Below are positions 40,501 through 64,000 of a DNA stretch of 64,000 nucleotides, piece by piece. The position numbers and the translations under genes were made by a program. The notes beneath the pieces were generated by a model. That model ran no database searches. It was not told where the DNA came from and saw only the letters and a program-made list of their open reading frames with translations. The DNA is from Bryopsis sp. KO-2023 (lineage: Eukaryota > Chlorophyta > Ulvophyceae > Bryopsidales > Bryopsidaceae), in NCBI GenBank assembly GCA_030272585.1, contig BSYQ01000004.1:4712001-4776000 (forward strand), in the 5' to 3' direction. The number at the start of each line of letters is the position of its first letter. The first letter of the stretch is position 1.

Positions 40501-40512
40501 TGTATCAAGAGC

Positions 40513-40656
40513 TGTTGGAACGACCCAATCGAAGTGAGGCTTTATAGTACAGATCTGGGTTTGTAGTACAGATCTGTCCACCAGTTTTAGGATATAGGGT
40601 GAACACTCGGTTGTTTGTTGGTCTTTTGTAACCTTCTCGTTTTCCCCAATTCAACA
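40513..40656 (+). repeat. 5' LTR of the TRIM-like element
   Basis: TG…CA termini with an inverted TGTTG/CAACA end. It sits 12 bases upstream of the ATG of the minus-strand coiled-coil gene, so it may supply or disrupt that gene's promoter. Confidence 0.88.
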
Positions 40657-41136
40657 TGGTTTCGGAGCCAGGTTCGCCCTGGGAAAGTGCGCTCTAGGGA
40701 GGGCGCAAGTTGTGGAGCAAGTCGCACAAACAGTGCGCAGTTAGTCACATCGCAACACCCAGGTGGCGTCCAGAACGTCAAGTGGAGTGGGTGCGATCGA
40801 TGGGACCTTCTACTAGGAGGCACAGAGCGACTGGCAAGCCACGAGAACCGTCGCTGAGGGTGGGGGGCTATGGGCAGCACAACCTGACGCAGGCGTGGAG
40901 AAGTGTGACCGCCAAGCACTCTTCTCGGAAGCAAGAAGACCCGTCGTGCGTGTACCACGACGTAAAAGATCTCTCCTCACAAAGCACACACTCGGCATAC
41001 GACACATCCCCTGACTTCCTTGGTACTCTCGAGCTACACTGATTGGGGAGCCACGTCTGCATCGAACCAGGTCGAGGATTGTGAGTTCGAAGGAGGCGTT
41101 TGGGCTGCGCTGGGTTAAACAAGCCCTGAACTGAAC

Positions 41137-41600
41137 AGAGATAGGACTTTCCGGTTACGGTACCGTAAACCGTACCGTAACCCCACTCCGGTCACTTACG
41201 GTTACGGTAGTTACGGTCCGGACCGGAGTGGTTTTCGTGCTCGGAACCGGACCACCGTACCACTCCGTACTGCTCCGGTACCGGACCGTACCGACCGTAA
41301 CCACCGTACCAACCGTAAACCGTAAATAGTAACCCCCGCAGGGTCCCGAGAACCCAAAGGAACCCAGGGGGATTCGAACCCACGACCTTACAGACTACAG
41401 CCTAACGCTTTAGCACTGAACCACACTACTTCACGGTGATTCAGGGGCTACCGTAGCTATACCGTACCTGTTCCGTACCGTAAAAACAACATATTACTCC
41501 GGTTACGGTACGGAGTTACGGCCGTAATACGGAACCGTAACTCGACCGTAACCGGACCGGACCGTAGCCGGACCAGAATTTTGGCCCAAGTCCTATCTCT
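41137..41600. mobile_element. Fold-back element with tRNA-like core, nested in the TRIM
   Basis: A 464-bp block is bounded by perfect 13-bp inverted termini (AGAGATAGGACTT / AAGTCCTATCTCT) and flanked by the 9-base direct repeat GAACTGAAC, with one extra G on the right. Subterminal DNA on both sides is a dense mosaic of CGGTTACGGTA / ACCGTAACCG words that can fold back. Nine-base duplications are typical of Mutator-like elements; assignment to that superfamily is inference. Confidence 0.7.
41368..41440 (-). other. tRNA-like (Pol III B-box) sequence in the fold-back element
   Basis: On the minus strand it reads …GTGGTTCAGTGCTAAAGCG… then GTGGGTTCGAATCCCCC. This gives an A-box-like and a perfect B-box (GGTTCGAATCC) about the right distance apart. 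The acceptor stem does not pair, so this is a tRNA-derived module, not a functional tRNA. Confidence 0.6.
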
Positions 41601-41927
41601 GGAACTGAACATACCTACGATGAAAGGTATCGAGAGTGACGAAATCCCCAAGCCAGATCGAGGATTGTGAGTTCGAAAGAGGCGTTTGGGCTGCGCTGGG
41701 TTAAACAAGTCCTGAACTGAACATACCTACGAAAAGTAGCGAGAGTGGCGAGTATAGTATACAGGGGTAGTTTTCGTTCAGATTGTGTTCAGTGGGAAAA
41801 AGAAAGTTTTTGATTGAGGATGAGTATCATCCTGTCAGAAAAAAAATATATATGGGCCCACCACGCATTTCATTGTGGGGAAACTTGAACAGAGTTCAAG
41901 GGTCGGAGTTTTATGCGCCGTGAAGCG

Positions 41928-42071
41928 TGTTGGAACGACCCAATCGAAGTGAGGCTTTATAGTACAGATCTGGGTTTGTAGTACAGATCTGTCCACCAGT
42001 TTTAGGATATAGGGTGAACACTCGGTTGTTTGTTGGTCTTTTGTAACCTTCTCGTTTTCCCCAATTCAACA
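41928..42071 (+). repeat. 3' LTR of the TRIM-like element
   Basis: Same length and, by eye, the same sequence as 40513-40656. It is followed by GAGC, the target-site duplicate. Confidence 0.88.
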
Positions 42072-42889
42072 GAGCACAAAAAAAAACCGAACACAAGAAA
42101 GGAGGCGAATCGGAGGGTTGGGCACATAACTCCATGTGCTGCAATCTGAGTCTGTCTGTCTGAACTGCATGTGGATAATAAGGTGAAAAGATTGGACTGG
42201 GGGAACACTCTGTATAAGGCGGGAAAAAGAGAGGAGGCAAAAAGGAGGGACAATCTCTTCCACAAATCAGCACAAGCAAATTACAGACATGTCACAACCA
42301 TCCAATAACATCCCAACCAGCCAGCTGGGTCTTGAGCCAAGCTTTCGCCCAGAAGTTGGGCAACTTTCACAGACCACGACATGATCAAGAAATTGAAAAG
42401 AGGTCCTCCTCTCTGATAAACAAGAAAAAAAACATGAAAAAAATAGCAGACTTTACATCAACATCAAAGATGCAAGCCATATGATCACAGAAGCACAATT
42501 TTTCAGAGATCCTTCTCCTCCACAATCTACGAAAGTCCAGAGAAAGCTGGCAAGTTCCCCCATCCTTGTGCAACCAGGACTCTTCTTCTCCCAAACTCAG
42601 GGCTCGACCCAGCAGTCCCAGCCTTGTATCAAACCTCCTCTTCTTGAACTGCATGATTATTCTCTGAATCAACCAGAATAGCAAAACGTGAAATCAGTTA
42701 CGAATTTTGATACTGGTGGCAACTCTGTGGTGGTCTATGCAAAGCCTACTTTCAAGTGGGGAGTCTCATCTTTTGTTGGTGGGGAAAAGAAATTATAGGT
42801 GGGGGTGAAAAAACAAAGAAAAAACAGTCAAAACTCACTGGTTGAAGGAAAACAGGGGTGGATAGAAGGATTAAAAAAAAAAAATTAAC

Positions 42890-43403
42890 AGACTTACCCC
42901 GACGATACGGCCAGCGCCACCGAAAGATCCAGTGGGCGTGGGTGCTCTGGAGCAGGGGTCGGAGTTGGAGCAGCCGTAATCGCCGCCTTGGCAGCAATCT
43001 TTCCCGCAGAAACCACCACCGCAAAGCCTCACTTCTTACCACCCTGCGATCAGAGATATTCATCATGTCCCTCACAGACATCGCACACAACTCTTGGAAA
43101 CGATCGACGAGCAGCGCCGCCACAACAATTGCTCACCTGGGTTTCCTCCACGATAATCTTCTTGACCGGTGGGATAGATCCGCTTCTTCGACCACCACCC
43201 CCTCTTCGCGCCGCGATCCACGAGCTTTTCTACTGGTTTGACCTTCGTGTATGTGGCGGCGGCGGCTGCGCTATTGCCTACCATGACAACTGGTCCACGA
43301 TTGTCGCACCCCATTCTCCAAAAACGCAGCTAAAATACCACAGCATCGATTCTTTCGAATGGAGAGTTGCGAAGATCACGAAGCTGACGGCTGTGCTCCT
43401 CAT
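42890..43403 (-). CDS. Putative small secreted Cys-rich protein, left palindrome copy (splicing uncertain)
   Basis: An ATG at 43403 opens a frame with a signal-peptide-like start (MRSTAVSFVIFATLHS). About 500 bases downstream, one frame before a clear GTAAGT donor reads LCGGGFCGKDCCQGGDYGCS followed by NSDPCSRAPTPTGSFGGAGR, a compact six-Cys module. The one base difference from the right copy in this exon is synonymous in this frame (TAC/TAT, Tyr) and non-synonymous in the other two. An intervening exon at ~43240-43147 ends at a good GTGAGC donor, but the exact acceptors and phase are not settled; one reading ends in a short GGKK* instead. Secretion and disulfide structure are inferred. Confidence 0.4.
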
Positions 43404-44156
43404 GGTTGTAAAACTGAAGTCGAGTTGTAAACAGAAAAACTCCAGTGTCTCGATCTACACAAACAGTGGTATCAGCTTAACAGGGGAACTTGACGTTTTC
43501 GATACCGCTGGGGCGCGTTTAATCCAACCCGCCTGCATAGTTTTCTGGCCAAGGGCCAGATCCTGGAAATGAGGAACCCTGTCACAATCAATGAATCAAC
43601 TCCTCGAAAGGACGTCCAGTGCCCCACCTCTATTTCTGTAATCCCATGTGGCAAACTTAGCAAGAATAAGAACCCCTCCCCAGACTATCACAGTCAGCAC
43701 AGGCACTCCAAAAATACCTTCAATTATGTTTCTTTCCCATTTTTAACCATTTTTGTGGCAATACCAATGCAATGTTGGGGTGCAAAAGTTGGTTTCATTA
43801 TCACTGAATTCTGTTCTACAGGGGAGAGTTTTGAGGTTTGCAACTTGCTTAAACAAAAAAACAGCGCAGGATTTCTGAGGTTGATTGAATTTGGGTGGCT
43901 GCCAACTGAGGTTCAAGGGGTATTGTTAGTGTGTCTGCAAATGTCTTTCCTCCCTGGTTTCATTTGTGCCAATGCATGTTTTTCTGCATTCCTTTCAGAA
44001 TATTTTTTTCCCTAACTTCACAATGGAATGTCAGGTCCAGGTTTTTTGACACGGCCACCTTGGTTGGAAGAACTTGGTTCGATTTCATTCGAAAACCGAA
44101 AATCAAACACCAGACCCCCCGGATCAAACAGCTGTAGGATTCCTATCCGGCAAGCT

Positions 44157-46482: not shown

Positions 46483-46911
46483 CTTGCCGGATAGGAATCC
46501 TACAATATTGTTTGATCCGGAGGGTCTGGTGTTTGATTTTCGGTTTTCGAATGAAATCGAACCAAGTTCTTCCAACCAAGGTGGCCGTGTCAAAAAACCT
46601 GGACCTGACATTCCATTGTGAAGTTGGGGAAATAAATATAATGAAATGGATGCAGAAAAAACATGGGTTGGCACAAATGAAACCAAGGAGGAAAGAAATT
46701 TGCAGACAGACTAACAATACCCCTTGAATCGCAGTTGGCAGCCACCTAAATTCAATCAACTTCACAAATCCTGCGCCGTTTTTTTGTTTAAGCATGTTGC
46801 AAGCCTCAAAACTCTCCCCTGTAGAACAGAATTCAGTGATAATGAAACCAACTTTTGCACCCCAACATTGCATTGGTATTGCCACAAAAATGGTTAAAAA
46901 TGGGAAAGAAT

Positions 46912-47132
46912 TTTTTATCGCTCAAAGGTACATTGATGGATCCAGAAACTGGATGAAGCAAATGCCTGGCCCCACAGATGAAACTCGAGGAGGAGGCCAC
47001 CGTTCATAAGATGCTGGGCGACCTGCCAGAGAAAGTCAAGCACCCCCACTATAGTGAGTCAGACCACACCAAGTCCATTTTCTTTCTGCCAGACATCAGG
47101 AGGTTGGGTGTTGATCTATTTCATTATGAATT
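46912..47132 (+). other. Arm-specific insert with an exon-like frame
   Basis: This segment is absent from the left arm. After CCCCACAG a frame opens with MKLEEEATVHKMLGDLPEKV and continues KHPHYSESDHTKSIFF… to a stop near 47138. It reads like real protein but I do not recognise it. Confidence 0.3.
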
Positions 47133-47559
47133 TTTTTGAAGGTGTTTTGTGCTTGCCTGTGCTGATCGTGATAGTCTGGCAACCGCCTCTCCAGATAATG
47201 TGTGCTGGGCGAAGCTTTGTGGTGAGCTACAAATTCTCGGAAACAAGGGCGCTTGCGGCCTGTTATCTTGGCTGAGGTTTCCACATCGGACTACAGAAAT
47301 AGAGGGGCACTGGCCGTCCTTTCGAGGAGTTCGTTCATTGATTGTGACTGGGTTCCTCATTTCCAGAATCTGGTCCTTGGACGGAAGACTATGCAACGTT
47401 GTGATGTGCACAGAATAAGGGTGCATGGGGAGGGGGTTGGATTAAACGCGCCCCAGCGGTATCGAAAACGTCAAGTTTCCCTGTTAAGCTGATACCACTG
47501 TTTGAGTAGATCGAGACGCTGGAGTTTTACAACTCGACTTCTCACTTAGTTCAACAACC

Positions 47560-48062
47560 ATGAGGAGCACAGCCGTCAGCTTCGTGATCTTCGCAACTCT
47601 CCATTCGAAAGAATCGATGCTGCGCTGTTTTAGCTGCGTTTTTGGAGAATGGGGTGCGACAATTGTTGACCAGTTGTCATGGTAGGCGATAGCGCCGCCG
47701 CCGCCACATACACGAAGGTCAAACCAGTAGAAAAGCTCGTGGATCGCGGCGCGAAGAGGGGGTGGTGGTCGAAGTAGCGGATCTATCCCACCGGTCAAGA
47801 AGATCATCGTGGAGGAAACCCAGGTGAGCAATTGTTGTGGCGGCGCTGCTCGTCGATCGTTTCCAAGAGCTGTGTGCGATGTCTGTGAGGGACATGATGA
47901 ATTTCTCTGATCGCAGGGTGGTAAGAAGTGAGGCTTTGCGGTGGTGGTTTCTGCGGGAAAGATTGCTGCCAAGGCGGCGATTATGGCTGCTCCAACTCCG
48001 ACCCCTGCTCCAGAGCACCCACGCCCACTGGATCTTTCGGTGGCGCTGGCCGTATCGTCGGG
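47560..48062 (+). CDS. Putative small secreted Cys-rich protein, right palindrome copy (splicing uncertain)
   Basis: Paralogue of the left-arm copy. It has the same signal-peptide-like start (MRSTAVSFVIFATLHS), a middle exon ending at GAAACCCAG|GTGAGC, and a Cys-rich exon at 47933-48062 ending CGTATCGTCGG|GTAAGT-type donor. A stop in one frame of the middle exon (GTCGAAGTAGCGG versus GAAGAAGCGG on the left) either rules out that frame or marks this copy as a pseudogene. The C-x4-C-x3-CC-x6-C-x5-C spacing is kept. Confidence 0.4.
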
Positions 48063-49808
48063 GTAAGTCTGTTAAACTTTTTTTAAAATCCTTCTATCCG
48101 CCCCTGTTTTCCTTCAATCAGTGAGTTTTTTCTTTGACTGTTTTTTCTTTGTTTTTTCACCCCCACCTATAATTTCTTTCCCCCACCAACAAAATATGAG
48201 ACTCCCCACTTGAAAGTGGGCTTTGCATTCCCCAAGACCACCACAGAGTTGCCACCAGTATCAAAATTCCGATCTCACGTTTTGCTATTCTGGTTGATTC
48301 AGAGAATAATCATGCAGTTCAAGAAGAGGAGGTTTGATGATACTGTGAAGGGATTGCTGGGTCGAGCCCTGAGTTTGGTTGTCATGGATGCATAAGGATG
48401 AGGGAACTCGAAAATTTTCTCAAAGAATTGTGGACTGCTGGAAAGATCTCTGAAATATTATGTTTATCTTTTGAGATCGTGATCGTATGGCTTGCGTCTT
48501 TGCTGTTGATGCAAAGTCATCTATTTTTTTGGCATTCGTATTAAATTTTTATTTATTTCATGAGAGAGAGAGAGAGAGGAGGAATTTCTTTTCAATTTCT
48601 TGATCCTGTCGTGGTCTGTGGCTGCACAATTTCTGGGTGAAACCTCCGGCTCGATTTTCAAGCTCGGCTCAGAACTCTTGGTTTATTGGGATGTTATTGA
48701 ACGATTGTGGCTCGGGTGACATGTCTGTAATTCGCTTGCGTTGATTTGTGGAGGAGACCGGGTGCGTATCTACCCCCCCAGCAATAGTGTGACCCTGCGC
48801 TTCGAGGGACACATCAGCACACAACTGAAAGGACGGCACCCCAGTCCGACATGATGTCACGTCGCGCGAGCGAATTGCTGGGTGTTGCTGGGCGCAAGAT
48901 CCTTGGCAGTATCCAGCCGATAGAATGAGGCAAATCCCAGGGAAACGAAATTTCCCTGAAAGTATCTTCCACCCAGCAATTTCGCCAGCAATCACCCCCA
49001 CCCAGTGTTACCGAGAGCCGCCATGACGCACCGCGCTTTGAGAACAGTTTTCCTTGCTGTTGGCACGAGGTGGGTTGCGAAGGAGATTCGTGGTTCATGA
49101 ATGCACGCATCCCAGTGGCAGAACTCCGCAACGCCACGAATTCGCACCCGGAAGACGCACCAGAGAATGTCCTTCTTCAAAACTGGCCTTCAAAAATTGG
49201 ACAGACTCTTTGCGCAGTCGGGTCGTCCTTACGAAGAAATAAAGTTTCTCCCCTTCTGTGTGGTTGAAGCAAAACGAACTGCAAATTTTGTGCAACGGTT
49301 TTCTCAGCAGTGCAAGACCCTAAACACCCTAAATTGAAGAGCTGCGTGCCTTCCACTCCAGTGACATGCAGCAGGATGCTAGCTAGGCCAGGCCCACATG
49401 CAGATCTTGTGGGCATTTTGGCCCAAGGATTGAAAGCTGTTGCAGGTGAGCAAAAATCGCAACACAATAATATTAGATAATAGTATATACGTATCAATGG
49501 TATATACTGTGCACATATATACCATTCCAATATGAAATGCTGTTTTTTTTGCTTTGTGAATTGAGGATCTGTCTGGTCGATCAGCCACTGATTGTTCAGA
49601 CGTTAAAGCTTTTGATTGAAACGATTCTTACACTTGCTGTGAATCTGCGATTCTGGCGTCCGATATTCCGGAACTCAGGTTGGCTAATTTCCCCGAACAC
49701 ATGCTGATTGCTTTTGTTGCTGTCCTTTTGAAAAAGAGATACATGATACCCAACACTTCCATAATAGTTCAAAAATTCAAATAAATGTTGGCACGTTTAT
49801 CTCTTCAG

Positions 49809-50812
49809 GCAAATTTTCAACGGATTCGATGTTGATGCCTTTATTGCATGTGTGTTTGACAGAAAACGGCCTAGTACCCTTCGAGCGAGAACGGCATGTC
49901 ATATGTGGGAACTGAAAGTGAAAGACATGGAGCCTTTGTTTTCTTCGTATCCGACTCTGAAAGAGACTCTGATGGAGGGCTACAGAGTGTCCGTGGTGAC
50001 GAGGTTGAACAGGCAATCTTTGAAACACGCCGCCTTGGAAGACAAAGTGGAGGCCGAGCTGGGAGCGGATCTGAGCGGCCACGAAGCTTTGGATTTCAGG
50101 AGGGAACTCTGTGAGTTTATTTCAACACACGAAAAATTCATCTCACCATGCATCATCAGCATCATCGGGATTTAGTCGGCATCGATGTGCATCACTCTTG
50201 ATGATGATGATGTGCATGCATCACATCACATCACATCAACCGACGGATCCTGAAGACACCCTCTCGGTTCCCTCGCCCCTGTCGCCCATGACCCCCATCC
50301 TGAACATCACCGAACCCAGAAACATCATCCACCACTGGTTGCTCACCTTGCGAGCCAATGGAGTGAACGGGATGCTGGAATTCACTGAAAGAGTGAAAGC
50401 TTGGAAAGGTGGTGGCAACGGACCACAGGGTGGCAGCCTGTCAGACTTTGCGAACTTGCTGAAGGATTTCGATCTGAAACCTCGGCAAGTCACGGCTCTG
50501 TTCTCGCATTTGTGCCCCTCGGACTCCGGACTGGTGGATCCCAGCAAGCTGATCGATCTGATTCGTTTTGCCACCATTTCTGCACGACGGCAGCACATTT
50601 TGATCGGAATTTTCGAGAAGTTGGATGTCAACATGACGGGGACGGTGGATGTGATGGAGCTGGTGAAGGGGTTTCAAGTGGGGCTCCACAGAGGTGGACT
50701 CCATCGCGAGATTTCAACTCGAGAAATCGAGTTGTTCGATTCACTAAGGCGCAATCAGAGGATGCGGAGCCGGTGCCAAAGAGGTGCTTTCGATAAACGA
50801 ACGGTTGGTTAG
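49809..50812 (+). CDS. EF-hand-like protein, C-terminal exons (5' part unresolved)
   Basis: Two exons (49809-50110 and 50256-50812) join in phase. The first encodes RARTACHMWELKVKDMEPLF followed by a helical, charged segment; the Ala-x-Thr-x-Cys…W-E-L pattern is reminiscent of the C-terminal part of a cyclic-nucleotide-binding fold, but only weakly. The second holds two EF-hand-like units: LFSHLCPSDSGLVDPSKLID and IFEKLDVNMTGTVDVMELVK, the latter with a recognisable Ca-loop pattern D-x-N-x-T-x-T-x-x-x-x-E. Upstream exons, perhaps at 49171-49310 (MSFFKTGLQKLDRLFAQSGR) and 49590-49680, could not be joined with confidence. Function unknown; calcium sensing is plausible. Confidence 0.6.
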
Positions 50813-51441
50813 TGGAGTTTAGCTCCCCTTAAGAATCAATCAATTTTTTTTTGGAAAAAGTGGGTGCCTCATGCAAATTAATTGATTGACAGAAATGTTC
50901 GATGATTAAAGCTTTAATGGAAAATTGAAAAACGACGGGAACCACAGCGGAGAAATTTGAGCTGGAAGAAAATCAGAATGAACTCTATTTGAAGAAGCAA
51001 GATAATCGAAAAATAGAAAGGCAAATCCAATTTGATTAAACTAGGTTTTTGGTGCCTGGGGGCAGATGCAAAAAAAAAAATGAAATTGCAAACAGATTGA
51101 GGGGTCATCTACGCGAGTTTAGTTTTGTGTGCTGAAAATGGTCATGGAAACCCCCCAAAAAAACAAAGTCGCCATTGTTTTGTCCCAAAAATAGAAATCT
51201 GATTGTATCAACCAGCACACAGTATGTAAACTAATGTTCGAAACAAACCTTGTGAAAACCTACCGAGATTTATTTCAACTGCGACGTGTTCTTTTCGCTC
51301 CTCATTTACAAAAAAACACAAAAGATCTCTTCCCCCCCCCCAAAAAAAAAAGGTTTCCCTGTACCACCTTTTACTACAACAAATTCCGTTTTCTTTCTCC
51401 AATTTTGCCAAAGGCAATTCTCAGTGTGTTGTTTCGGCCAG

Positions 51442-52266
51442 GCAGAAAAAGCAGCACAAGCACCCCCGCCCCCACCCCCTCCTCCAGTAGTCGAGGAGCA
51501 AGCGCCTCCGAACAACGGGCTGTTGGCTGCAGGAGATGCGGTGGCAGGCGTCCTGTTGTTTTTCTTCACCAGACTGGGCTCCGGGGCTTCCTTTGCCGAT
51601 TTGGATAATGTATCGGTGCCGCTGGATGTCGCACTCACAAATGGGAAACCCACGGTCGTGGAGTTCTATGCAAACTGGTGCGGGTTTTTTCAATTTCTTT
51701 TTTTTTTGGGTGTGTGTGTGTGTGTGAATGTGTATCCAATTGTCATCAGCTGAGGAGCAATTAAGAAAATCTCAGAAAAAAAATTTGCTTTTATATATAT
51801 ATATGGTTGGATAAGCGATTTGGATGAGTGAGTCCTCCTGGGATTACCCATGCAATTCTTGTCAGCATTTTTTCTGGAGTTTGTCAACACCAGTTTCTTC
51901 TCAGTTTACCTTCTGCATAGAGAGGTAGCTAGATATAGACATTGTGATGATCCAGTGTTTTTGGGTTTTTTTCCCCCTGAGTCAGCCTATAAATTTCCCT
52001 GAACACGGAAATACACGGCCTTTTGGCCGTGTGAAAAATAATTTCAATTCAAGAATATATAGATGTGCTTCAACATATAATTTTGATTAATTTCTGCGGC
52101 GATCCGAGCAAATTCTTAGGCTAGAAAAATGCTGGCCCTAACGGTGGCTTGTTTTGATTTTTTTTTCCTGTTGCAATCCAGACTTGAGGTTTGTCGGGAA
52201 ATGTTGCCAGATGCTGTGGCCTTGGAAGCCGAATACGCCGGAAAAGTGAACTACGTCACCCTGAAC
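51442..52266 (+). CDS. HCF164: HCF164/TxlA-like thylakoid thioredoxin, two internal exons (partial)
   Basis: Exons 51442-51683 and 52182-52266 join in phase. The first has a Pro-rich linker, a hydrophobic helix ([20 protein letters not shown]) and the block [19 protein letters not shown]. That block is characteristic of HCF164/TxlA, a membrane-anchored thioredoxin-like protein that faces the thylakoid lumen and is needed for cytochrome b6f and c-type cytochrome maturation. The second continues [20 protein letters not shown] then VNYVTLNV, again family-typical. Start and C-terminal exons were not found; the expected cis-Pro region is not visible downstream. The junction yields C-G-L-E-V-C in place of the usual CxxC, so either the splice site is wrong or the site is altered. 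Confidence 0.7.
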
Positions 52267-52529
52267 GTTCGTTTTTTCATGTGGACGGAAAAACAAATGC
52301 TGGGAAACAAACGAGGTGGCATCGATATTTTTGGGGACTTTTTTTTTTGTTAATTGTTTTGATCTTTTTTTTTTTTTTTTTGGTGGCTCTGGCAACAACA
52401 GAGCCTGAAGGGGTTGCAGGTCAAAAGTCAGAGTCGGCACCACTACATGTTTTTTCACTTTTCGACGCTGGGATGTGCAGAGCAGGATGCGAACACGGAC
52501 GGAGGTGGTCATGATGATGTTGAGGGCGT

Positions 52530-53189
52530 TCAATGGAGTGGACCGTGACTGGAAGAGATGGAGGTCGTGACAAACAGAAACGAAGCCACTCGAAAATCAT
52601 TATCGCCTCCTGAGGGGAGTTTTGGCATATATCTCCTAAAGATGGTGTCGGTGCCGGGACGCTGGGAGCTGGGGCTGGCGTAGGTGGAGATGATGGGGGG
52701 TGTGGGGATGGAGGAAATGTTGGATATGGTGGCGGGGGTGGAAATGTTGGAGGTGGCGACTGGTCGGCCGGAGCTGGGGCTGAGGGCGTAGGAAGGGGAA
52801 GGTCGCTGAATAAAGAAGAAACAATAACGATACAGTCGATCCTCGCAGGATTCAAATGATAGTGGAACGTAGGCATTGAAGGTGGCAGCATTGATGTAGG
52901 GGACTGTATGTTGATTTGGGGGGTCATATTGTACAAATGCCCTGGATTCAGCTCCAACATTGCCACCACCTCCAGCACCGTTAGATCCAGCTCCGGGCCC
53001 AGCTCTGGCGCCCTCATCTCTCCCCCCGATTCCACTACCCAGGTCAGTGTGTCCCTGACTCAACCTTGGATGCCGCTTTGAATTTGATGGGATCCGGCAA
53101 CCTCTTTGGATGTGTATGGGGAAAACGCCATGGAGTCCACTTTCGTCACTTGCGTTTAGAGCTCTCGTATTATCAGGCAAGCAACACAC
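52530..53189 (-). CDS. Uncharacterised Gly/Pro/Ser-rich open frame
   Basis: A 219-codon frame on the minus strand reads …GSNGAGGGGNVGAESRAFVQ and YDPPNQHTVPYINAATFNAY, then a Ser/Pro/Thr-rich stretch. A T-rich acceptor-like site at the STOP-free position ~52807 would shift it into a Pro-rich frame (PPPTFPPPPPYPTFPPSPHP), as in cell-wall-type proteins. Either reading is unproven, and the opposite strand is Gly-rich and also open. Confidence 0.3.
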   Translation of the reverse strand: MCCLPDNTRALNASDESGLHGVFPIHIQRGCRIPSNSKRHPRLSQGHTDLGSGIGGRDEGARAGPGAGSNGAGGGGNVGAESRAFVQYDPPNQHTVPYINAATFNAYVPLSFESCEDRLYRYCFFFIQRPSPSYALSPSSGRPVATSNISTPATISNISSIPTPPIISTYASPSSQRPGTDTIFRRYMPKLPSGGDNDFRVASFLFVTTSISSSHGPLH

Positions 53190-54724
53190 TTTCTTCTATT
53201 GGTCCTCAGCAATTATGGTCTATGAAAGAGCCCACAACTGGGAATCTGTTGCCGATAGGCAGTGATTTTTGCGATCATTGTTATTGCAGGCATTGATTGT
53301 TGCAATTGAAGACAATATTTCGACAGTGGAGGCTGGTGTGCAAGGGCAGCTCAAAATTCAACAAGGGAATCTGCCCTCACCCACTTACTCCTCTCATTAC
53401 TTGTGATAGGAAGGAATTTTTGTTGCTTTTGGGAAGTCTGGGGGGGGGGGGTTCAACTAGCTAAATGGGATCAACAGCAAATTCGTCCTCAATCTTCTCT
53501 CTGTGTGTGATCTCATCATTCCCTGGAAATTTTTCTGTGCAGGGAGCAATCGATACCCTGGTCGGATTCAGGATGGCCAGCAGCCGATTGCAATCCCCTG
53601 GCAGCAAACACTCCAAAGCAATGTCTACATCTCAGGAGGATAGAAAAGGGGATATATGGAGCGCCCGAAGTTCGCTTTGATGATGAGGAGGATGACCTCA
53701 TTACGTAAGCTTGCAGCCATCAATCTCTGATCGATGCCACCTGTCACCTTCCAACAGTGATGCACCTGTTGCTGGGAAAAGAACAAATTTAGAAATACAG
53801 TCATGCTGCCTTCGTTTTTCCAATGTTTTTCCTCTACATGTCTTGCAAACAAAAGCATCTTTTGAACCAGTCGTTTGGTGTGCCCTTTTTTGATGGCAAA
53901 AGAAAAAAAAATAATGTCCTGTGTTTCGCTTCCAGCAGCAAACAAGCTGTTGTTGTTTGTTGTTGCTGCTGTTGCAGCAAGTCCCCATTCCAAAAAAAAA
54001 ACGAAAAGAATCGTGTATGCACCGGTATCATTATACTCATATTTTTAATATATTGTCTACTATTTTAGTATTTGGACAGGCTTGCGCAATGGAATTGTAT
54101 ATTAGATGGGGCCCTTTTTTTCTAAGTAGGGTTGGTTGCTGACTGGCGGCTCTACTACATCGAAAACATCTGTGCTTTTTTTGTATGCCCATCAATCACT
54201 TCTGACTGGATAAGGGCAATAGCAGGCGAACCGAAGCTCTGCACCCTGGTTGCCCAAGCCTTGCAACGGGAGCGCAGCCATGGAGCACAACAGAGGACAG
54301 ACTTTTTTATTTATATTCGGGTTGGATGTGCACCAAGGTTCACTTGGCGATGTTCAAGGACAGCCAATTGATGGTGGTTGGCGTTTTTCTATTCGTTCAG
54401 TTGAGTTCATTTTTGTTCTGGGACAGATATGTTTGCCGGAACTGGGGCCTGGGTGAAAGCCGGAACTGGGGCCAAGGTTGCAAGGAACACGATGGATGAA
54501 TCCAAGGAGACAATGTCAAGTGTAGCCTGTCCTGACAGGTGTGCTCGTAGTAAACGAGATTCAGTTAATTGAAATGGAAAAGACTTGTCTGATATGGAGC
54601 GTCGCTTATGTTGATTCCTAAAGCAAAAAGACCAGGCTTGGTAAAAAATCCCGCATAGAAGGAGGCTGCACCCCCCGCAGATTTTTTTCGAAATGTGTTA
54701 CATCAGGAAAAAATTGCCCCAATA
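52813..54724 (+). other. Unassigned region with exon-like pieces on the plus strand
   Basis: After TTATTGCAG, 53291-53400 reads ALIVAIEDNISTVEAGVQGQ. Near 53635-53708 a frame following CATCTCAG reads EKGIYGAPEVRFDDEEDDLI before TAA, a plausible acidic C-terminus. These could be 3' exons of the thioredoxin gene or of another gene; the phases do not settle it. Confidence 0.3.
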
Positions 54725-54973
54725 CTATCTGGCGGGCATGTCCCCATTTTTAATTCGCTCTATAAGCTTCATTATGGACAAATTGTTTTTCTTGCGATAA
54801 TCTTCCATCGTTTCAGCCACTTGATTTCCATTAGCATCGTTTGCTTTCTCCTCGAAAAATTTCCAAAGCGGCCGGCGCCTAAAAGCCTTATCTTTTTCGG
54901 TACTTTTCAACTTTTTGTTTTTAATTTTTTTCCATTCTTCATACAAGTCCATCACTGATTTTGGTCTTGTAAT

Positions 54974-55066
54974 GAGCTCGAGCTCGGGCTCCGGTTCCGG
55001 TTCCGGTTCCGGTTCCGGTTCCGGTTCCGGTTCCGGTTCCGGTTCCGGTTCCGGTTCCAGTTCCAG
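54974..55066 (-). repeat. GGTTCC hexanucleotide repeat encoding Glu-Pro repeats
   Basis: About a dozen tandem GGTTCC units lie within the last Crypton exon and encode a (Glu-Pro)n stretch between the two GCR1_C-like modules. In-frame length changes would be tolerated. Confidence 0.92.
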
Positions 55067-57199
55067 TTCAGGTGTGTGTGTGTTTCCCACGTAGGTCTCA
55101 AGGATCTCAGCCCAGTCATCGTCAACAACAGGGTCCACAGACAGCGTTCCAACTGCAGTTGCATCCACCACTCCATCCACCGCTCCAACTACCGCATCTG
55201 TCGCAGCTGCAACGGCCGCCACATCCAGCAAATCTACCACCATATCGGGCACATCCAACAAAGCCACTGCCGCGTCTCCCACTTCCCTTGTCACCTCCCC
55301 CATCGTCTCGGTTGGAGGGACTTCGTCATTTTCCGGGACTTCTGGTGGGCCATCAAACTCTTTTCAAATCAAAGAAAGTACGAATAATTTAACAAAATGA
55401 AACCACTCGAAAAATGAACAAAATCAAGTGAATCAAATCAAGTACAAGGACTTACCGTTTAGTTTCAGCCTTTTCCTATCATCATGGATACCATCACTTG
55501 ACCTTTTCTGCCCTGTGCGCTTGATCCCTCCCCTCCTCCACTCAATTTTCTCACCCCGTATGTTTATGACAGGCGTATTGTCGTTTTGAATTCTCAATTG
55601 AAATTGATATATGGTCAATTTGTTATCAATTCTTGCATTTTCAACCGCATGGACAACTTCGGATCTCCGAAAGCCTGTTGCATTTTTGATTTCCTCCAGA
55701 AATTTAATCACAATTTTTCTCTTGAAAATTTTGTGTGTAAGCGCTGTGTTGTTTTTCCTCCAATCAGAAAAATTCTGTTCCATGTAGGCAATCGAGACGC
55801 CCCCATTCAAACCATGATTCCACTCTTCGTCCAGCTCTACGATTGACACCAATTTTTCCTTCAAATGCAAGGTGGGCTGGGGCTGGGGCGGGGGCTGAGG
55901 CGTGGGCTGGGGTGGGGCCGGGGCCGTTTTTTTCTCCATTGGGGGGTCAGATAGAAGTTTCAAAATCAACCGCCGATTTTCGTTTATTTCCCTCAGCATA
56001 TCGACTGAGATTTTTTCGAGAGAATCTTGCAAGCTTTCGACCTACAAATAACAAGGGAAAATATGTACACATTTAAATATTTTTAAACCATTAAATTTAA
56101 ATTTCTGCAAGCATTTTAGAGATTTCAAAATAAATTCCAAGGCATATAAGTTATTGATACTTACACCATTGTTTTCTCTCGTAGGTACAAAGTCTTCACA
56201 ATACTGCTCGACCTGTGCCGCCCACACTTCGAAACCCGGGTCAAGGAAAGCTGGGTGACGAAAGAGGTATGACGTAGGAAAGCTCCTAAATATATGAATG
56301 AGTGTTTAATCTTAAGAATAAAAATCCAGCCCAAAACAAGTAATCCTTTTAGATCCATAAATGTACAACTGTATATAAAAGAAAAATTGGTGAGAAAGTG
56401 CCTTGTGTCCTAACTAACTATGTAAAAATAGGTTCTGTGAGAAATAATTGGAATAGGAAGAGAAATATTCCTATGCTAGCTGAGTATTTCGAGCCGAAAT
56501 ACTGACGCACCTGCGCAAAAATACGGCGTCTTGCAGAATGACGATCCGAAGATAATCTAACACATCGAGGAAACTTTCAGCTGCAATATCTCTAGTGTTC
56601 GAACTCTTGTTCATCTCTTTGATTTTTTCTTTGAGTTCGCCTGTGATTTCTGGAAATATCAGTTTCTGCAAGTGGATGGGAGGGACAAGATGGCCCCGAA
56701 CGCATCTGTATGCCTTGCGATCCACCCCATAGCCGGCTGCTGCAATCAGCGCGTCCAGAGGTAAGTTGGTGAGATAGCTTTTAAACAAATGGTCCATCCG
56801 CCATCGACCTAATCTTCGAATGTCTGTTTCAGAAGCTCTACATCCCATTAAAAAACAAGGTGACTTAATTGTTTTTTCGATATTAAGGACCATAAACAAC
56901 ATTTTTGCAATTCGAGTGGAAACAAAAAACAAAGTCTGTGACTACAATTATATAATTTGTGAGCTTCAAAGAATTGATTTCAAAATTATAATAGATTCTG
57001 AAGAGAGTCGCGAACTGAAAATACTATTTTTACTGTACGGTTTTAACTATTATTCTCTTTTTTTCTGCAAGAGAAGTGGGTCGCCAGTTTTTACTGTTTT
57101 CCTTCAGGCCAACAGGACTTTATTGCATACTGGAAGAATGACGATCAGTTCCCTCGAAAGAGAGAGGTAAAAAATTTACAGTTTATCTTGTGATCAATT

Positions 57200-57775
57200 T
57201 TGTTTCTACCTCTCCCAAAAATCTATGAATGGTGGGTGTTAGACATCCCCCCCTCCCCCCTCGAAAAAAACAAAAAACAAAAAACTGTGGACATGTCGAT
57301 ATGTTTCGCTTCGTGCCATTCAGAGCTACACTATAAGGAACCCCCCATTAATTCTGTGCATGGTTCTGGATTTTTGCCTTATTATTTCAAAACCACTTCC
57401 AGGCGTCAGTGATGAGCTACATTCTGGATGTCTGAAATGAGGTGAAAATTTTTCAGATGGAATAAAATGACTGGAGCCACTTGTGTTCTTGCCCTTTCTT
57501 AAAACTAATACATGGTGGGTTGCAGCCTGCCACTGGCTTACCCCCACCTGAATAACAACTTTGCATATGTTGATGTGTTTCGCTTTGTGTCATTCAGAGT
57601 TAGAAATTTTTTATATTTCCACAGTAGGGAAAAGCCTATCGATTCTGTGAATTTTGCAGGCCCGATTGCTTTTCAACTTCCAAACGTCATCGAGGAGGCA
57701 TAGTTGGGCTGGCGCGAAAATCCAGGCGTTATTGAGGAGGCATAGTTGGGCTGTCACGAGAAAGGTAAAATTCTA
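57200..57775 (+). repeat. Degenerate duplications in Crypton intron 8
   Basis: Two diverged copies share TGTTTCGCTT(C/T)GTG(C/T)CATTCAGAG (near 57300 and 57577). A shorter direct repeat, GAGGAGGCATAGTTGGGCTG, occurs at ~57692 and ~57736. Both lie in the long intron between the His-x-x-Arg exon and the Tyr exon. Confidence 0.7.
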
Positions 57776-58567
57776 TTGTTCATTCGCACCCTTTTTTTTC
57801 AAGATCCCTTGCTCCAGAGCCACGGGGGGCGTGGGTGGTTTTCGTGCTTGATATCCCGTTGGCTCGAAATGCCGCATTGAAATTGCGATGCATCTGACTG
57901 TAACTGAGAGGTTCCTTTGCGTCTTGGCCATGAATTAAGTGATAATCGTACCTGAAAACGAATAAAGTTTAATATTTTAGATGTTTACATTTTATATTTT
58001 ATATTTTCTATATAAATGCAATGATTTTGTTTTGTTTTGCTGTTTTTTTTTTTCTTACCACTTCTCCTTGCTAGTGAGATCAGGGGTGGGTAATGTTTTC
58101 GATAGGTCCAAAGAACTTAGTAGGTGAAAACCCACCCCTCCTACTGCACATAGGGCAGGGTCACGATGACGAAGAAAACCGGTGTATTCCGTCCGGTTAT
58201 TCTGCAAAAAAGAGGAAGGATGGATTAGACCTGCTTTTTTCTTTTTCTTTTCTTTTTTTTTTTAAGTACTTACTGAATTTGTCTTTCCCTGTTTCATAAC
58301 AGAAACCAAAGCAACGGCATCGTCAGGCCCCACTCCCTCGACGCGGTGAAGCAATAGGTCACAGAGCTGTACATTGCGCTGATCGTCGCCCCTGCCAAGG
58401 CCCGCGTTCATAAACAAGAACGAGCATCGATCACGAACATCACGGTAAGTATTTTTTTTCAGAAACCACTCAGATACCCCCTTCAATTGAAGTGATGTAT
58501 AACCATCGGCGAGGGAATTCGATTGTCGATCAGAGTACGCCCTACACACGTATAAATAAAATGAAAA

Positions 58568-58625
58568 AGTGATATGACCGGTGGTGAGGCTAATCTCTTA
58601 TCCCAGTTCGAATCTGGGTATCACT
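58568..58625 (+). other. tRNA-like hairpin lacking ~14 nt
   Basis: It has a perfect 7-bp acceptor-type stem (AGTGATA/TATCACT). Directly abutting is a perfect 5-bp T stem with the canonical loop (CCCAG TTCGAAT CTGGG). The remaining 27 bases are too short for both D and anticodon arms. It reads as a truncated tRNA relic inside the Crypton intron, antisense to the recombinase gene. Confidence 0.5.
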
Positions 58626-58689
58626 TCTATCTTTTCCGAAGTGTAGGTGGAAGTTTGGGTGGGAGTTTTTTTCTCACGAAAATCCTATT

Positions 58690-59870
58690 CTTTTCCTTGC
58701 AGTTGTTTCACAACCATGTACATGTCATTTTCTGTTGCTTGCAGTTGTTTTTTATTTTGAAAAAAAAAAAGGAGACACATTTGTCATGTTTTCATATTCT
58801 GGATGCCACCTGATTTTTAGTCCACAGAAAAATCGATTGTTTAATCAGTTGTGTTGTTTTCCTTTAATGGCTGCCAAAAAACCGATTGTTTTCCAAAGAG
58901 AGGGAAAAAAGAGAAACAATAGAAAAAAGTCCAAAGGAAAAGAAAAGAAAAGACTATAATGCTTGCAGTTGTTTTTTTTGTTGCTTGCAGTTGTTTTTTA
59001 TTTTGAAAAAAAAAAAGGAGACACATTTGTTATGTTTTCATATTCTGGGTGCCACCTGATTTTTAGTCCACAGAAAAATCGATTGTTTAATCAGTTGTGT
59101 TGTTTTCCTTTATTGACTGCCAAAAAACCGATTGTTTTCCAAAGAGAGGGAAAAAAGAGAAACAATAGAAAAAAGTCCAAAGGAAAAGAAAAGAAAAGAC
59201 TATAACGCTTGCAGTTGTTTTTTCTGTTCTTGCAGTTGTTCTTTATTTTGAAAAAAAAAAAGGAGACACATTTGTTATGTTTTCATATTCTGGGTGCCAC
59301 CTGATTTTTAGTCCACAGAAAAATCGATTGTTTAATCAGTTGTGTTGTTTTCCTTTATTGACTGCCAAAAAACCGATTGTTTTCAAAGAGAGGGGAAAAA
59401 GAGAAACAATAGAAAAAAGTCCAAAGGAAAAAAAAAGAGAGAAACAATAGAAAAAAGTCCAAAGGAAAAAAAAAGAAAAGATTGTAATGCTTGCAGTTGT
59501 TTTTTCTGTTCTTGCAGTTGTTTTTTATTTTGAAAAAAAAAAGGAGAGACATTTGTTCTGTTTTCATATTATGGCTGCCACCTGATTTTTAGTCCACAGA
59601 AAAAATCGATTGTTTTCCACAGGGAGGGAAAAAACAGAATCAATAGCAAATATTCCAAATAATAAAAAAGAAAAGAATGTATTCCTTGAAGCATTTTTTC
59701 TTTTGTTTCACAAGAAAATTAGGAACGGGACACATTTCTTCTATTTTGTTAGTATGACTGCCACGTGATTGTTGATTAACAGAAAAACTGTTTATTCTTT
59801 AAAAGAGGAAATAAAGAGTAAAAAGAAAATCCAAAGGAAAAGAAAAGAAAATACTAGAACACTTCGGTTT
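58690..59870 (+). repeat. Tandem array of ~245-bp units in Crypton intron 5
   Basis: The unit begins TTGCAGTTGTTTTTTATTTT, contains GGAGACACATTTGT and CACCTGATTTTTAGTCCACA, and ends with a GAAACAATAGAAAAAAGTCC A/G-rich block. Four clear copies start near 58734, 58980, 59225 and 59512, and a degraded fifth lies at ~59690-59870. The array swells the intron between exons 5 and 6 to 1.55 kb. Confidence 0.88.
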
Positions 59871-60880
59871 TATTTTTTTTTATTTTACTTTAATAGGAAG
59901 AGCAAAAAAAACAAAAACTGTTCCATTCTTTTTTCTGTTTCTTTTTCTTCTCTTTTCTTTTCTTACTTCCGTTTCCTCCCTTCTTCGTTCCTTTTACAAA
60001 GATCGTTAGCCAAGACGACCTCGGGAAATTTTCGGAGGGGGATATAATATTCTTCTTTATCCCCCCTTAGTACAAATTGTTCTCTGTACTTGTAGGAAAC
60101 CGCCTTTAAGCGATTCTCAAAAACACTCAAGCTCTACATCAGAAAAAAAAAAAATAATAATAAAAAAAAAAATATATATATATATATATATTATAAATTC
60201 CAGATTCCATTAAACAAACACACATCTACTTTTTTTTAGATCTTACCTTGCTTTTTTCTGACAAATGAAGAAGATATGCCGCCACTTTGTTTCGTGTAAC
60301 CTTATCATCATGGCCTGATCTGTTGCACCACTCCTATCGCCAAAGGAAATAACAAAAATTATAGCTTTAAAAAAGTAAAAGTTAAAAAAATGAAAATAAA
60401 AACTGAAACTAGTACTGAATTAATTTAGAAGGAAGAAATTAATTTAAAACTAAATTTGTTTTTGTTTCTTACCTCCCAACATCGAAATCCAGTAGAATAA
60501 CTTTTTTTTGTATTCGGCTTCATTCCTGCCCAGTGCGCTTCTACGATCGATTTCCTTGTGGCTTGTCCTCCTCTATATAATAATAATAAAATAAAAATAA
60601 AGAAAGAAAAACTGAAAAAAAAAATAAAAAATTAAGATAAAGATAAAGATAAAAAATTAAAGTGCTCCGAAAAATGTGCCTACTCCAGAATTCCAGGAAT
60701 CCACTCCTCCGCAATCGCATCATCATGATTGAAGTCATTATCATCCAGAACTGACCAATCTTCAGAAAGAAAACGAAAGCAAAGAGAGTGTAAAAAAAAG
60801 GAAAAAAAAGGAAAAAAAAAGGAAAAAAATAGCAACAGTTGCCAAGGAGAAAGCACCCAATCACACTCACTTGTGTCCAT

Positions 60881-61195
60881 CCTCTCTCTCTCTCCCTCTC
60901 CCTTTCTCCTTCTCACTCTTTCTCTCACACTTTTTTCCTCTCACCCAAATGCGCACTCTCTCTTCCCAAAACTCACCCACGCTCGCTCACCCACGCTCGC
61001 TCGCTCGCTCGTGCGTCAGCTGGCGGCCAGGGGCGGCTGGTGTATCCTTGCAGCGTGCGGGTCGGGCAGCGAGGTGACCGGTGCTGATCGGATCGCGGTC
61101 CGACTGGCGTCATCGCGATCGCCGTACTGCGAGGCGCGATCGCGAAACGCGCGACATTTCTAGAGAGCCACGTCGGATCGCTGGGCGCCCGATTC
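60881..61195 (-). promoter_or_regulatory. Upstream region of the Crypton gene and junction with the palindrome arm
   Basis: It contains a pyrimidine microsatellite (CTCTCTCTCTCC…) and then a GC-rich stretch with CGATCGCG words (61070-61160). That composition differs sharply from both the Crypton introns and the palindrome. The element's 5' boundary could lie here. No TATA box was recognised. Confidence 0.35.
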
Positions 61196-63925
61196 CGTCC
61201 CTCCCATTTGCCTCTCTTTTTGCCGCCTCATACAGAGTGTCCCCCCAGTCTAATCTCTTCACCTTATTATCCACATGGAGTTCACATTTTGACAGACCCA
61301 GATTATAGCACATGGAGTTCTGTGCCCAACCCCTCGATTCGCCTGCTTTCTTGTGTTCGGGTTTTTCTGGCGTTCGGATTTCTGGTGGTCTCTGCTTTCT
61401 GGTGGTCTGTTTTTTTTTTCTGGTGGTCTTTTTTTTTCCCGGAGAGGCTCTCGACGATGCTCGGTCTCATCGTCGTGGCGATAATGTTCGCTGCTCTCGG
61501 TAGTCTGGGTTTCCCATCAAGGGTGGTCGCCTTGATGGAGGTCATCGACCACCACTACAGCGTCCAGGATGAAAGCTTATCGTTCATCGATAGGCTCTGG
61601 GCGTTGATGTTGGTCGTCGACGAGCACTATCGAGCTGACTTTGCCGATGTGCCGGAGGACGCAATCGAGGATCTGGAGGAAGAGCTGGAGCGCGAGCGAG
61701 AGAGGCGTAAGTGTTGTTGCAGCTCTGCATGGACGAATTTCGACAGGGTCGTCAAAAATGTCGTCACAAGTGTCGTCAGAAAGGCGCAAATGTCGTCAGA
61801 AAGGCGCAAACGTCGTCAGAAGGGCGCAGTTGCGTCCCATGCTTTAGAAGATTCTTTGCGCGGTTTTCGCCGACGTTTCTCGTTGACGTTGGTTCGCAAT
61901 TTTCCCAGACCAAGGACTCCTTGAGCACGTGGATCAACTCGACCACATGATCGAGCTGCAGGATCGCAAGATCTTGTACTGGGAGAGGAGCAGGTCGGAG
62001 GGGATTCGATTCTGCAATGGAGAGGTGAGTTGATTTCAAGTTAAATCATCAGCAATTGATGGATTCGACCTATAATATGTGTGTGTAAAAAAAAAAAAAT
62101 GTGTTTTTTAAATCCTACAGATCCGGTCGGAACAAGCGAAGCTCAGGTCCGAGAGAGGGAAGCTCAGGGAGGCCAGGGAAAACCTCGACATGGACACCGA
62201 GTGGATATCGGAGGAGAAAGTTGTAGTGAGTGAATGATCGATTCTGTGTTATTTGATGCTCCTTTTGAATGCAAATGGTACGAGTGTTTGTAATTTATTT
62301 TATATTTTTTTCAGCTCAAGGACCAGCAGCAAGCTTTGGTGCGGAAGGAGGAGCTGTTGGTATGAATGAAGTGTTTTGTTTTTCCAAGAAAAAAATGATG
62401 TCCTTTTTTTTTTTTTTTGATAACTCGGTATATTCCCTCCACCTTCCCTTCCAGATGTTTCTGTGAAATACATTTATATATACTAAGTACGTTACATGTT
62501 GCTGGAATTCTTGTTTTTAGGGAGTCATGTTTGTGGGCATGGTCTTGCGGACCTGTGGGGTGGACAGAGCCAACGTCAGATGTGAGTGTAAAAAAAAAAC
62601 AATGATTGAAATTCCTGAAACTTCTGTGGTTGATTTGAACTAATCCTCAAAAAAAAATAAATTAAAAAATCGAAATCATGGGAAAAACATGAATCCTTGT
62701 TTTAGATGTTTCATGCATGTGACACATGCATTCCATCAAAAGCAAGATGCTGATCTGCTCAAATCCAGAAAAAGCCCACCACCATTCTGTGTGGGGGATT
62801 TACAGGGTGGGAAAAGTAAGAAAAAGATAGCTCAACAGAAAAAAATTGAGCTGCAGCAAGAGTGCTGATTTGGTTGACAAAACTGGAAAAAAATGAGCAT
62901 GAAAGAGGGCTGTGCTGGATGCCTAAGGATCTACTTATATATCTGCTGGATGTAGTGGCTGAGATGCATGTGTGTGTTCAGTGTTTGGTGGTGGAGGAAT
63001 CAGGAGGGCTTAAATGAAGCCAGGATTTCGGTCAGGTGGATGGAGGGTCTTCGAAACGCGAAGCACGGAGAAAAAAAGGTGAATGTGTGGGCCCAAAAAG
63101 TGGGTATTGGGATTTTTGGAAAGCAGCTGGGAGGTGTCTGAAAAGGAGACCAGGGAAGCAAGAGGAGATGACGGGGTGAAAGACCCTTTGTGCGCATACG
63201 GAATGTTTTGAGCGAGGGGGGTGGTCAGCCGCATGGAAGAGATGGCAAAGGACTGCCAACACCTCCAAAAAAAAACATCCCAAAGCATAACTCAACTGTT
63301 GATGCGCCTGGAATTTCAATCCACCAGATCATGGTAATTGGTTCATTTTCTGAGCTTACTCACTTTTTGCTTTTTTGAATGTTAATTTCTGTGATGTTTT
63401 TCTTATATTAATGAAACTGGATGTTGAGATCTTCACTTGGTGTGTTTTTTTTGCTTGTTTTCAGGATTGATGAAAGAAGCATATATCTCAAATGTGCAGG
63501 AAAGGAAAAAACACAATGATTGCGGTTGTGTGCTTGCATGAGGCCCGAACAGGAGTCCTGAAGTTAATCGCTCAACATTTGTGTGTCAGTGAATGAACTA
63601 AACTTCACAACAGCGGATATCTCATCAGGTAGGCATGTTCACTGAGTCATGTTTTATCATTTTGCCATGTATATCTTCATTTCCTGCCCAGCTGAAATCA
63701 AAATGAATAAATTATCTTTCAATTTTTACTTATTTTGGGTGGGTTGGCTGCTTCAGGATTACGAAGGCTGTGGGGTGCAGAAGCGCCGATAAAAGAGAGG
63801 GAGTAATATATTCCTTAACTGAACAGGGTCTGTCAGCTTGGAGCAATCCGACACTCTGGCTACATGTGCAAGGAAAAGACAAAAAAATCAACGAATGTTG
63901 CAGCTGCAATCATTGCTTTTCACAG
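61196..63925. repeat. Right arm of the large inverted repeat, outer part
   Basis: Reverse complement of ~42260-42072 and 40500-38113, without the TRIM insertion. Homology ends at ~63925, next to TTGCTTTTCACAGGT. The upstream part contains a thrice-repeated TTCTGGTGGTCT motif at 61380-61437. Confidence 0.88.
61457..62581 (+). CDS. Membrane-anchored coiled-coil protein, right palindrome copy (3' end unresolved)
   Basis: Exons 61457-61706, 61909-62024, 62121-62225, 62315-62359 and 62521-62581 join in phase. The N-terminal helix (MLGLIVVAIMFAALGSLGF) is followed by an acidic region not found in the left copy (FIDRLWALMLVVDEHYRADF, then EDAIEDLEEELERERERR). From exon 2 on the two proteins are nearly identical. 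Exon 5 is 3 bases shorter than in the left copy, in frame. Intron 1 carries a ~21-bp minisatellite (GTCGTCAGAAAGGCGCAAA). Downstream exon candidates (63190-63330, 63763-63870) are also preserved. No family recognised; the N-terminal swap suggests diversification of the extramembrane segment. Confidence 0.72.
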
Positions 63926-64000
63926 GTGGGTTTGTTTTTATCGGTTTTACCCCAAGAAGAAGTCGTAGGATAATTTTCTGACAGGTACATTATTAAAAGA

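Follow-up and report, generated by a model that had tools for sequence, protein, structure and literature searches.

A probable Crypton-type DNA transposon carrying host-gene fragments in the nuclear DNA of a bryopsidalean green alga

How does a tyrosine recombinase gene with 12 exons come to lie in the nuclear genome of a green alga, and does it belong to something larger? The gene was proposed by an initial annotation of a 64,000-nucleotide stretch of Bryopsis sp. KO-2023 DNA (assembly GCA_030272585.1, contig BSYQ01000004.1, positions 4,712,001 to 4,776,000 of the forward strand; the window). Comparison with other loci of the genome indicates that the real unit is a 12.44-kb element at window positions 48758-61197, larger than the recombinase gene. 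With a probability of about 0.85, we take it to be a tyrosine-recombinase DNA transposon of Crypton type that resides in the nuclear genome of a green alga of the Bryopsidales, with host fragments carried along. The green-lineage host presumed by the annotation is borne out by a protein encoded elsewhere in the window (16625-17572), whose best named match comes from Ostreobium quekettii (Bryopsidales; 53%). Below, contigs are written C1, C2 and so on, the window lying on C4; coordinates without a contig are those of the window.

What delimits the element? Two near-identical full copies were found in the 91.09-Mb assembly (28 contigs), one in the window and one at C3:6592513-6604976. The latter differs from window 48758-61197 by 18 substitutions and 11 length differences, which, length differences aside, amounts to 99.85% identity (0.15% substitutions). 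The two copies have unrelated flanks; a comparison of 74 kb with 50 kb gave no match at E <=1e-10 beyond the element. These limits define the following features.

48758..61197, no strand assigned: whole mobile element, 12,440 bp, the extent common to the C4 and C3 copies
48758..48760, plus strand: left-end CCG, where C4/C3 homology starts
61195..61197, plus strand: right-end CCG, where C4/C3 homology stops

The termini are identical in both copies, reading CCGGGTGCG on the left and CGATTCCG on the right, and it is the presence of the C4 and C3 copies that argues that the element has moved. When its left 200 bases were compared with the genome, five matches were obtained: the two full copies, C19:29394 (bases 1-156, 69%), C8:2270500 (bases 1-37, 95%), and C8:2274458 (bases 33-89, 96%). 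The four that contain the terminus begin at the identical base, and the fifth is perhaps the continuation of the C8:2270500 end beyond a 3.9-kb insertion. The right 317 bp occur only in the C4 and C3 copies, besides a 45-base match in a simple stretch.

Might the 12.4-kb block instead be a segmental duplication that includes a recombinase gene by happenstance, with no transposon involved? Just two near-identical copies were found, and large host-like stretches lie within them, as such a duplication would have it. This explanation is nevertheless highly improbable, given the unrelated flanks of the C4 and C3 copies, the two more left-end matches that start at the identical base, and a paralogue of the C4 site that precisely lacks the block and has one CCG left.

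That paralogue belongs to a small set. The left flank of the C4 element has paralogues at four other places, and the right flank is found at the same four. The flank halves lie 3 bp apart at three of them (C8:2827642-644, C8:2836755-757, and C4:4754251-253); at C8:3062719-722 they abut and lack a few bases. For three of the four places the sequence itself was read. One C8 site reads GGAGGAGA-CCG-TCCCTCCC, while the others read AGAAGAGA-TTG-TCTCTCC and GGAAGAGA-TTG-TCCCTCC. The filled C4 site reads GGAGGAGA-CCG...CCG-TCCCTCCC, and the GGAGGAGA-CCG-TCCCTCCC paralogue is most likely the state of this site before insertion. The C3 copy likewise has CCG at each end, and no paralogue of its left flank was found in the genome. 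Other copies and empty-site forms, which the initial annotation had recommended looking for, thus both exist: the near-identical C3 copy, diverged copies on C11 and C12 (described below), and paralogous empty sites, one with a single CCG. One of the unoccupied sites falls in the window itself.

42251..42253, minus strand: unoccupied paralogous insertion site (TTG), the same as C4:4754251-253, from flank comparison
38130-43882 and 46758-48757 + 61198-63927: arms of an inverted duplication, four matched stretches, 83-97% identical

The element is located in one arm of this inverted duplication; the other arm, in the same window, is without it.

A short repeat at both ends raises a second question: does a DDE transposase move the element by making 3-bp target duplications, with the recombinase as a passenger? 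The 3-bp repeat does resemble a target duplication, and a Mariner-Crypton composite has been described in Fusarium (PMC3212892, in the part of that paper available here, as for all its citations below). The element, though, has no terminal inverted repeats: the best 15-mer at one end agreed with the complement of the other at 9 of 15 positions, and no terminal pair was present among the 25 listed of 108 inverted repeats. Six-frame Pfam scans of 48758-54724 and 54725-61197 (X at stops, E up to 0.5) gave no transposase, reverse transcriptase, or other integrase, though domains split over short exons could escape such scans and a transposase could act from elsewhere. What they did give beyond the recombinase domains was FemAB_like and, below cut-off, EF-hand_6, Thioredoxin, a PARP-type repeat, and DUF2615. 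The same CCG at both insertions also speaks against a DDE transposase, and we regard this alternative as very unlikely.

Is the recombinase gene itself intact? An exon-by-exon rebuild on the minus strand recovered the 12 exons without stop or frameshift that had been proposed, with limits of exactly 60880 to 54725, 11 of 11 introns GT-AG, and a single open frame across the joined exons. The translation is 893 amino acids (aa) long, 41 more than the 852 residues given earlier. The ATG lies 317 bp inside the element's right end and the gene is directed inward. The parts of the gene, all from this rebuild, with catalytic residues placed by alignment and domains by Pfam, are as follows.

60871..60880, minus strand: exon 1, with the ATG
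60684..60759, minus strand: exon 2
60473..60572, minus strand: exon 3
60247..60333, minus strand: exon 4
59967..60133, minus strand: exon 5
58542..59966, minus strand: intron 5
58274..58541, minus strand: exon 6, with catalytic Arg197 and Lys233
58059..58201, minus strand: exon 7
57790..57951, minus strand: exon 8, with catalytic His324-x-x-Arg327
56511..56837, minus strand: exon 9, with catalytic Trp350 and Tyr359
56165..56285, minus strand: exon 10
55456..56041, minus strand: exon 11
54725..55359, minus strand: exon 12, with the stop
56231..58456, minus strand: NDC10_II domain, aa 176-465, exons 6-10 (E 1.3e-44, spliced protein)
55631..55864, minus strand: first GCR1_C domain, aa 547-624 (48.7 bits, E 9.5e-13)
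54794..54979, minus strand: second GCR1_C domain, about aa 810-871 (24.8 bits, E 2.6e-5)

Intron 5 contains tandem repeats with a unit of about 246 bp at 58728-59615.

The duplicated C-terminal GCR1_C modules, predicted earlier from the translation, both pass the Pfam cut-off of 23 bits when scanned separately, and the whole protein is matched by GCR1_C in two stretches. R197, K233, H324, R327, W350, and Y359, the catalytic set that the annotation had recognized, are invariant across 13 aligned sequences (the algal protein and 12 homologues). Unspliced DNA (54725-61197, X at stops) still matched NDC10_II (E 2.4e-19) and GCR1_C (E 4.3e-14) in one of the six frames. A recombinase identity by chance can be dismissed because the spliced protein matches NDC10_II at E 1.3e-44 and the unspliced matches are confined to one frame. 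With NDC10_II and GCR1_C both found by profile search, the earlier call of a Crypton recombinase holds, and the protein fits the description of CryptonF.

Structure and homology searches point the same way. A profile of the 13-sequence alignment, compared with solved structures, matched yeast CBF3 subunit A (Ndc10) at E 5.4e-9; a single-sequence search of the same kind found no match for the recombinase. Ndc10 accounts for the top two of the 37 profile matches at E <=1, and the other 35, all at E >=0.0088 and at profile positions 453-590, we set aside as coiled-coil chance. Named homologues with both NDC10_II and GCR1_C come from Riccia sorocarpa, Amoeboaphelidium protococcarum, and Phytophthora nicotianae (28 to 32% identity), and the Riccia protein places the family in the predicted proteome of at least one land plant. 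A wider profile search gave six proteins, three of them new; in both protein searches, scoring was limited to the 8000 candidates with most words in common. One scan of viral contigs yielded 16 pattern matches, none of which was confirmed. Among the homologues, a metagenome protein (P0009, 1031 aa) has a long extra C-terminal region absent from most aligned sequences.

Has the recombinase kept its frame in the other copy? The C3 gene retains every splice site, and its frame is open over 913 aa. Its exons 1-11 are without substitution relative to C4, exon 11 having one in-frame length change, and the exon 12 repeat has an in-frame length change plus three substitutions (one silent and two Pro to Leu in the DNA-level alignment). 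Aligned as proteins, the two differ solely in the two repeat lengths.

The genome also holds older relatives. A search with the catalytic part returned 58 matches at exon level, those in the window among them, and the NDC10_II profile matched the algal genome 13 times and 14 control genomes not at all. At C11:1745.7-1751.9 kb lies a copy of the recombinase, about 60% identical, with the catalytic motifs, both GCR1_C domains, and exon breaks in common near aa 91, 147, 236, 285, 338, 446, and 487. Two additional breaks occur in it, near aa 420 and 600, and an in-frame stop precedes its first GCR1_C. A more distant copy is found on C12. A second subfamily, about 30% identical, is represented by elements of at least 9.6 kb at C2:7540349, C2:7586892 (inverted), and C7:252305. 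These three insertions have a common terminus, TATCCAGAATATAACTGG, in unrelated flanks, and the two C2 copies, in opposite orientation, are 99.97% identical. The joined catalytic exons of this subfamily score 23.8 bits with NDC10_II, below the cut-off of 26.3. In a tree of 17 rows, C4 and C11 group (98/97) and C12 joins them (90/80), while the second subfamily forms a long branch of unsure placement. The tree took 13 of 15 homologues (P0011 and P0027 were left out), included no named fungal CryptonF references, and carries a long-branch warning. When five diverged loci were scanned loosely for the end motifs, two matches with <=4 mismatches came up, which we read as chance.

These relatives bear on a third alternative, namely, that the recombinase is by now dead or co-opted by the host, its open frame reflecting a mere recent insertion. 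Copies as recent as these (0.15% substitutions) would stay open without selection, and the diverged C11 copy does have an in-frame stop in one block. Against this, the same copy, at about 60% identity, has lost neither the catalytic residues nor either GCR1_C domain and still shares most exon breaks, from which it follows that the recombinase lineage was long under constraint. A dead or co-opted recombinase is therefore unlikely.

What fills the rest of the element? A genome search with the non-recombinase half gave 73 matches, with 40 of 136 candidates scored, so that counts are lower bounds. The stretches recognized in this half are listed here.

49091..49243, plus strand: stretch common to C9:526630-526782, 95%
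49245..49459, plus strand: FemAB-like fragment, upstream part, profile 82-133; DNA 88-91% identical to C1:2922683-2922973
49632..50691, plus strand: EF-hand-like fragment; 92-94% to C1:6564116-6565366
50691..52466, plus strand: thioredoxin-like fragment, nested in the EF-hand-like one; 89-91% to C8:3415077-3417923
52470..52556, plus strand: EF-hand-like fragment, continuation past the nested insert; 95% to C1:6565366-6565456
52730..53064, plus strand: stretch common to the C6:5999-6002 kb tandem array, from the genome search
53066..53415, plus strand: FemAB-like fragment, downstream part, profile 262-338, in two frames; DNA 83% to C1:2921215-2921627
54228..54272, plus strand: further FemAB-like match, 45 bases; 91% to C1:2921163-2921207

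The fragments are nested, with the thioredoxin-like one inside the EF-hand-like one and the latter inside the FemAB-like one. Scanned apart, the element's FemAB_like pieces score 20.5 (82-133), 18.7 (262-298), and 31.2 bits (295-338) against a cut-off of 27. The FemAB_like profile search (11 matches) found only the C1 locus and the two element copies. At C1:2921106-2923340 this locus covers profile positions 4-369 in five blocks, the first below cut-off and with a gap at 39-47, whereas the element has pieces of 82-338. The C1:2921-2923 kb region had also been considered as a shorter element and was rejected, being the FemAB-like locus. EF-hand_6 reaches 21 bits in the element (cut-off 25), and C1:6564116-6565456 is contiguous exactly at the point where the element's EF-hand-like fragment is broken. 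The thioredoxin exon of the C8 locus matches profile positions 30-88 at 25.7 bits (cut-off 23.5) and extends beyond the break point of the element's copy, which has no Pfam match. The exon preceding it scores about 16.6-17.6 bits in the element copy, below the same cut-off, and is absent among the matches listed for the C8 locus. Compared with their host loci, the pieces show three internal length gaps; two of these fall within the element's simple repeats (ATCAC-rich and (TA)n). A short interspersed repeat lies within the thioredoxin-like fragment (51789-52070), with at least 29 matches on ten contigs at 69-83%.

How did these pieces get in? Transfer from host to element is suggested by three features: the pieces are nested, the FemAB-like and thioredoxin loci of the host are fuller, and the frames within the element are broken. 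The pieces are 83-95% identical to the host loci and the element copies 99.85% to each other, so the pieces were in place long before the element last jumped. Uptake as DNA is suggested because intron-like sequence is kept between exon-like parts.

From these observations, a cycle can be proposed. The recombinase, with its core domain and two GCR1_C DNA-binding domains, would pair the element ends; Tyr359 would cut and rejoin at the 3-bp CCG core, releasing a circle with one CCG. The circle would then integrate elsewhere at another CCG, so that the element is flanked by CCG on either side and no target sequence is lost. The host pieces may have been acquired stepwise as genomic DNA, FemAB-like first, then EF-hand-like, then thioredoxin-like inside it, probably through break repair within the element, and would now travel with it.

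Several points weigh against this picture. TTG, not CCG, stands at two of the three empty paralogues whose letters were read, and the apparent preference for CCG comes from two complete insertions. The direct repeat, besides looking like a target duplication, measures 3 bp, whereas Crypton terminal direct repeats are described as 4 to 6 bp long (PMC3212892). No relic right end was found in the genome search, and a search of the joined ends for an inverted-repeat recombinase site gave nothing significant, since 8 to 19% of randomly made joints did equally well. Finally, the EF-hand and thioredoxin labels are weak, drawn in the element from Pfam scores below cut-off, and the host-to-element direction is a deduction about presumed donor loci.

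What would be new here? In the available part of a review of gene capture by plant transposons (May 2026; PMC13317346), Cryptons are undescribed in plants. Literature searches turned up no title or abstract, among the matches listed, that describes a green-algal Crypton element; most subscription journals and Repbase lie outside that scope. New, on this basis, would be a bounded green-lineage element with host-gene fragments, tandem GCR1_C domains, and a 3-bp CCG site. Host-gene pieces are an unusual cargo for Cryptons, and one chromosome-scale algal genome brings together a bounded element, its two near-identical copies with an open recombinase gene in each, an empty site, and host fragments. 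Three testable questions arise: (i) how a Crypton recombinase with two GCR1_C domains recognizes its ends, (ii) whether Cryptons take up host DNA via break repair, and (iii) whether cargo-carrying tyrosine-recombinase elements have more than one origin. One speculation, tentative and with the odds somewhat against it, is that green-algal Cryptons are a second, independent cargo-carrying lineage of tyrosine-recombinase transposons, a small counterpart of Starships that repeatedly spreads nested host-gene fragments. If true, there would be recombinase-driven exon shuffling in the plant lineage.

How does the element compare with known systems? It has a tyrosine recombinase with R, K, HxxR, H/W, and Y, no terminal inverted repeats, and, in the six-frame scans, no DDE transposase or reverse transcriptase, as expected of a Crypton; the lack of reverse transcriptase in those scans also sets it apart from DIRS and Ngaro elements. 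Its recombinase is fused to GCR1_C, and since NDC10_II plus GCR1_C fits the tyrosine recombinase (YR) plus GCR1_C by which Kojima and Jurka 2011 described CryptonF (PMC3212892), the element can, from its domains, be called Crypton-type with the architecture of CryptonF, without counting as a proven member of that clade. Crypton hosts tabulated in that source are fungi, animals, and stramenopiles (Table 1, PMC3212892). Like the CryptonF elements of fungi and oomycetes (PMC3212892), the algal element combines a tyrosine recombinase and GCR1_C with no terminal inverted repeats, short end repeats, and low copy number. Unlike them (PMC3212892), it has a green-alga host, a 3-bp repeat, two GCR1_C domains, 12 exons, a length of 12.4 kb, and host fragments. 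The Riccia sorocarpa, Amoeboaphelidium protococcarum, and Phytophthora nicotianae relatives, known here from proteins alone, have the same domains.

Starship captain genes are directed inward, as is the algal recombinase gene. Starships of the Pezizomycotina further resemble the element, in the available part of their description (PMC12134995), in having a recombinase gene at one end, host-type cargo, and flanking direct repeats. Their captain carries DUF3435 (PF11917; PMC12134995), which is absent among the algal recombinase's Pfam matches up to E 1, and they carry accessory genes and span 15 to about 700 kb (PMC12134995), in contrast to 12.4 kb with broken fragments in the alga. Pack-TYPE plant transposons, as portrayed in the accessible portion of PMC8903248, likewise capture and shuffle host coding DNA; they are non-autonomous (PMC8903248), whereas the algal element has its own tyrosine recombinase and no terminal inverted repeats.

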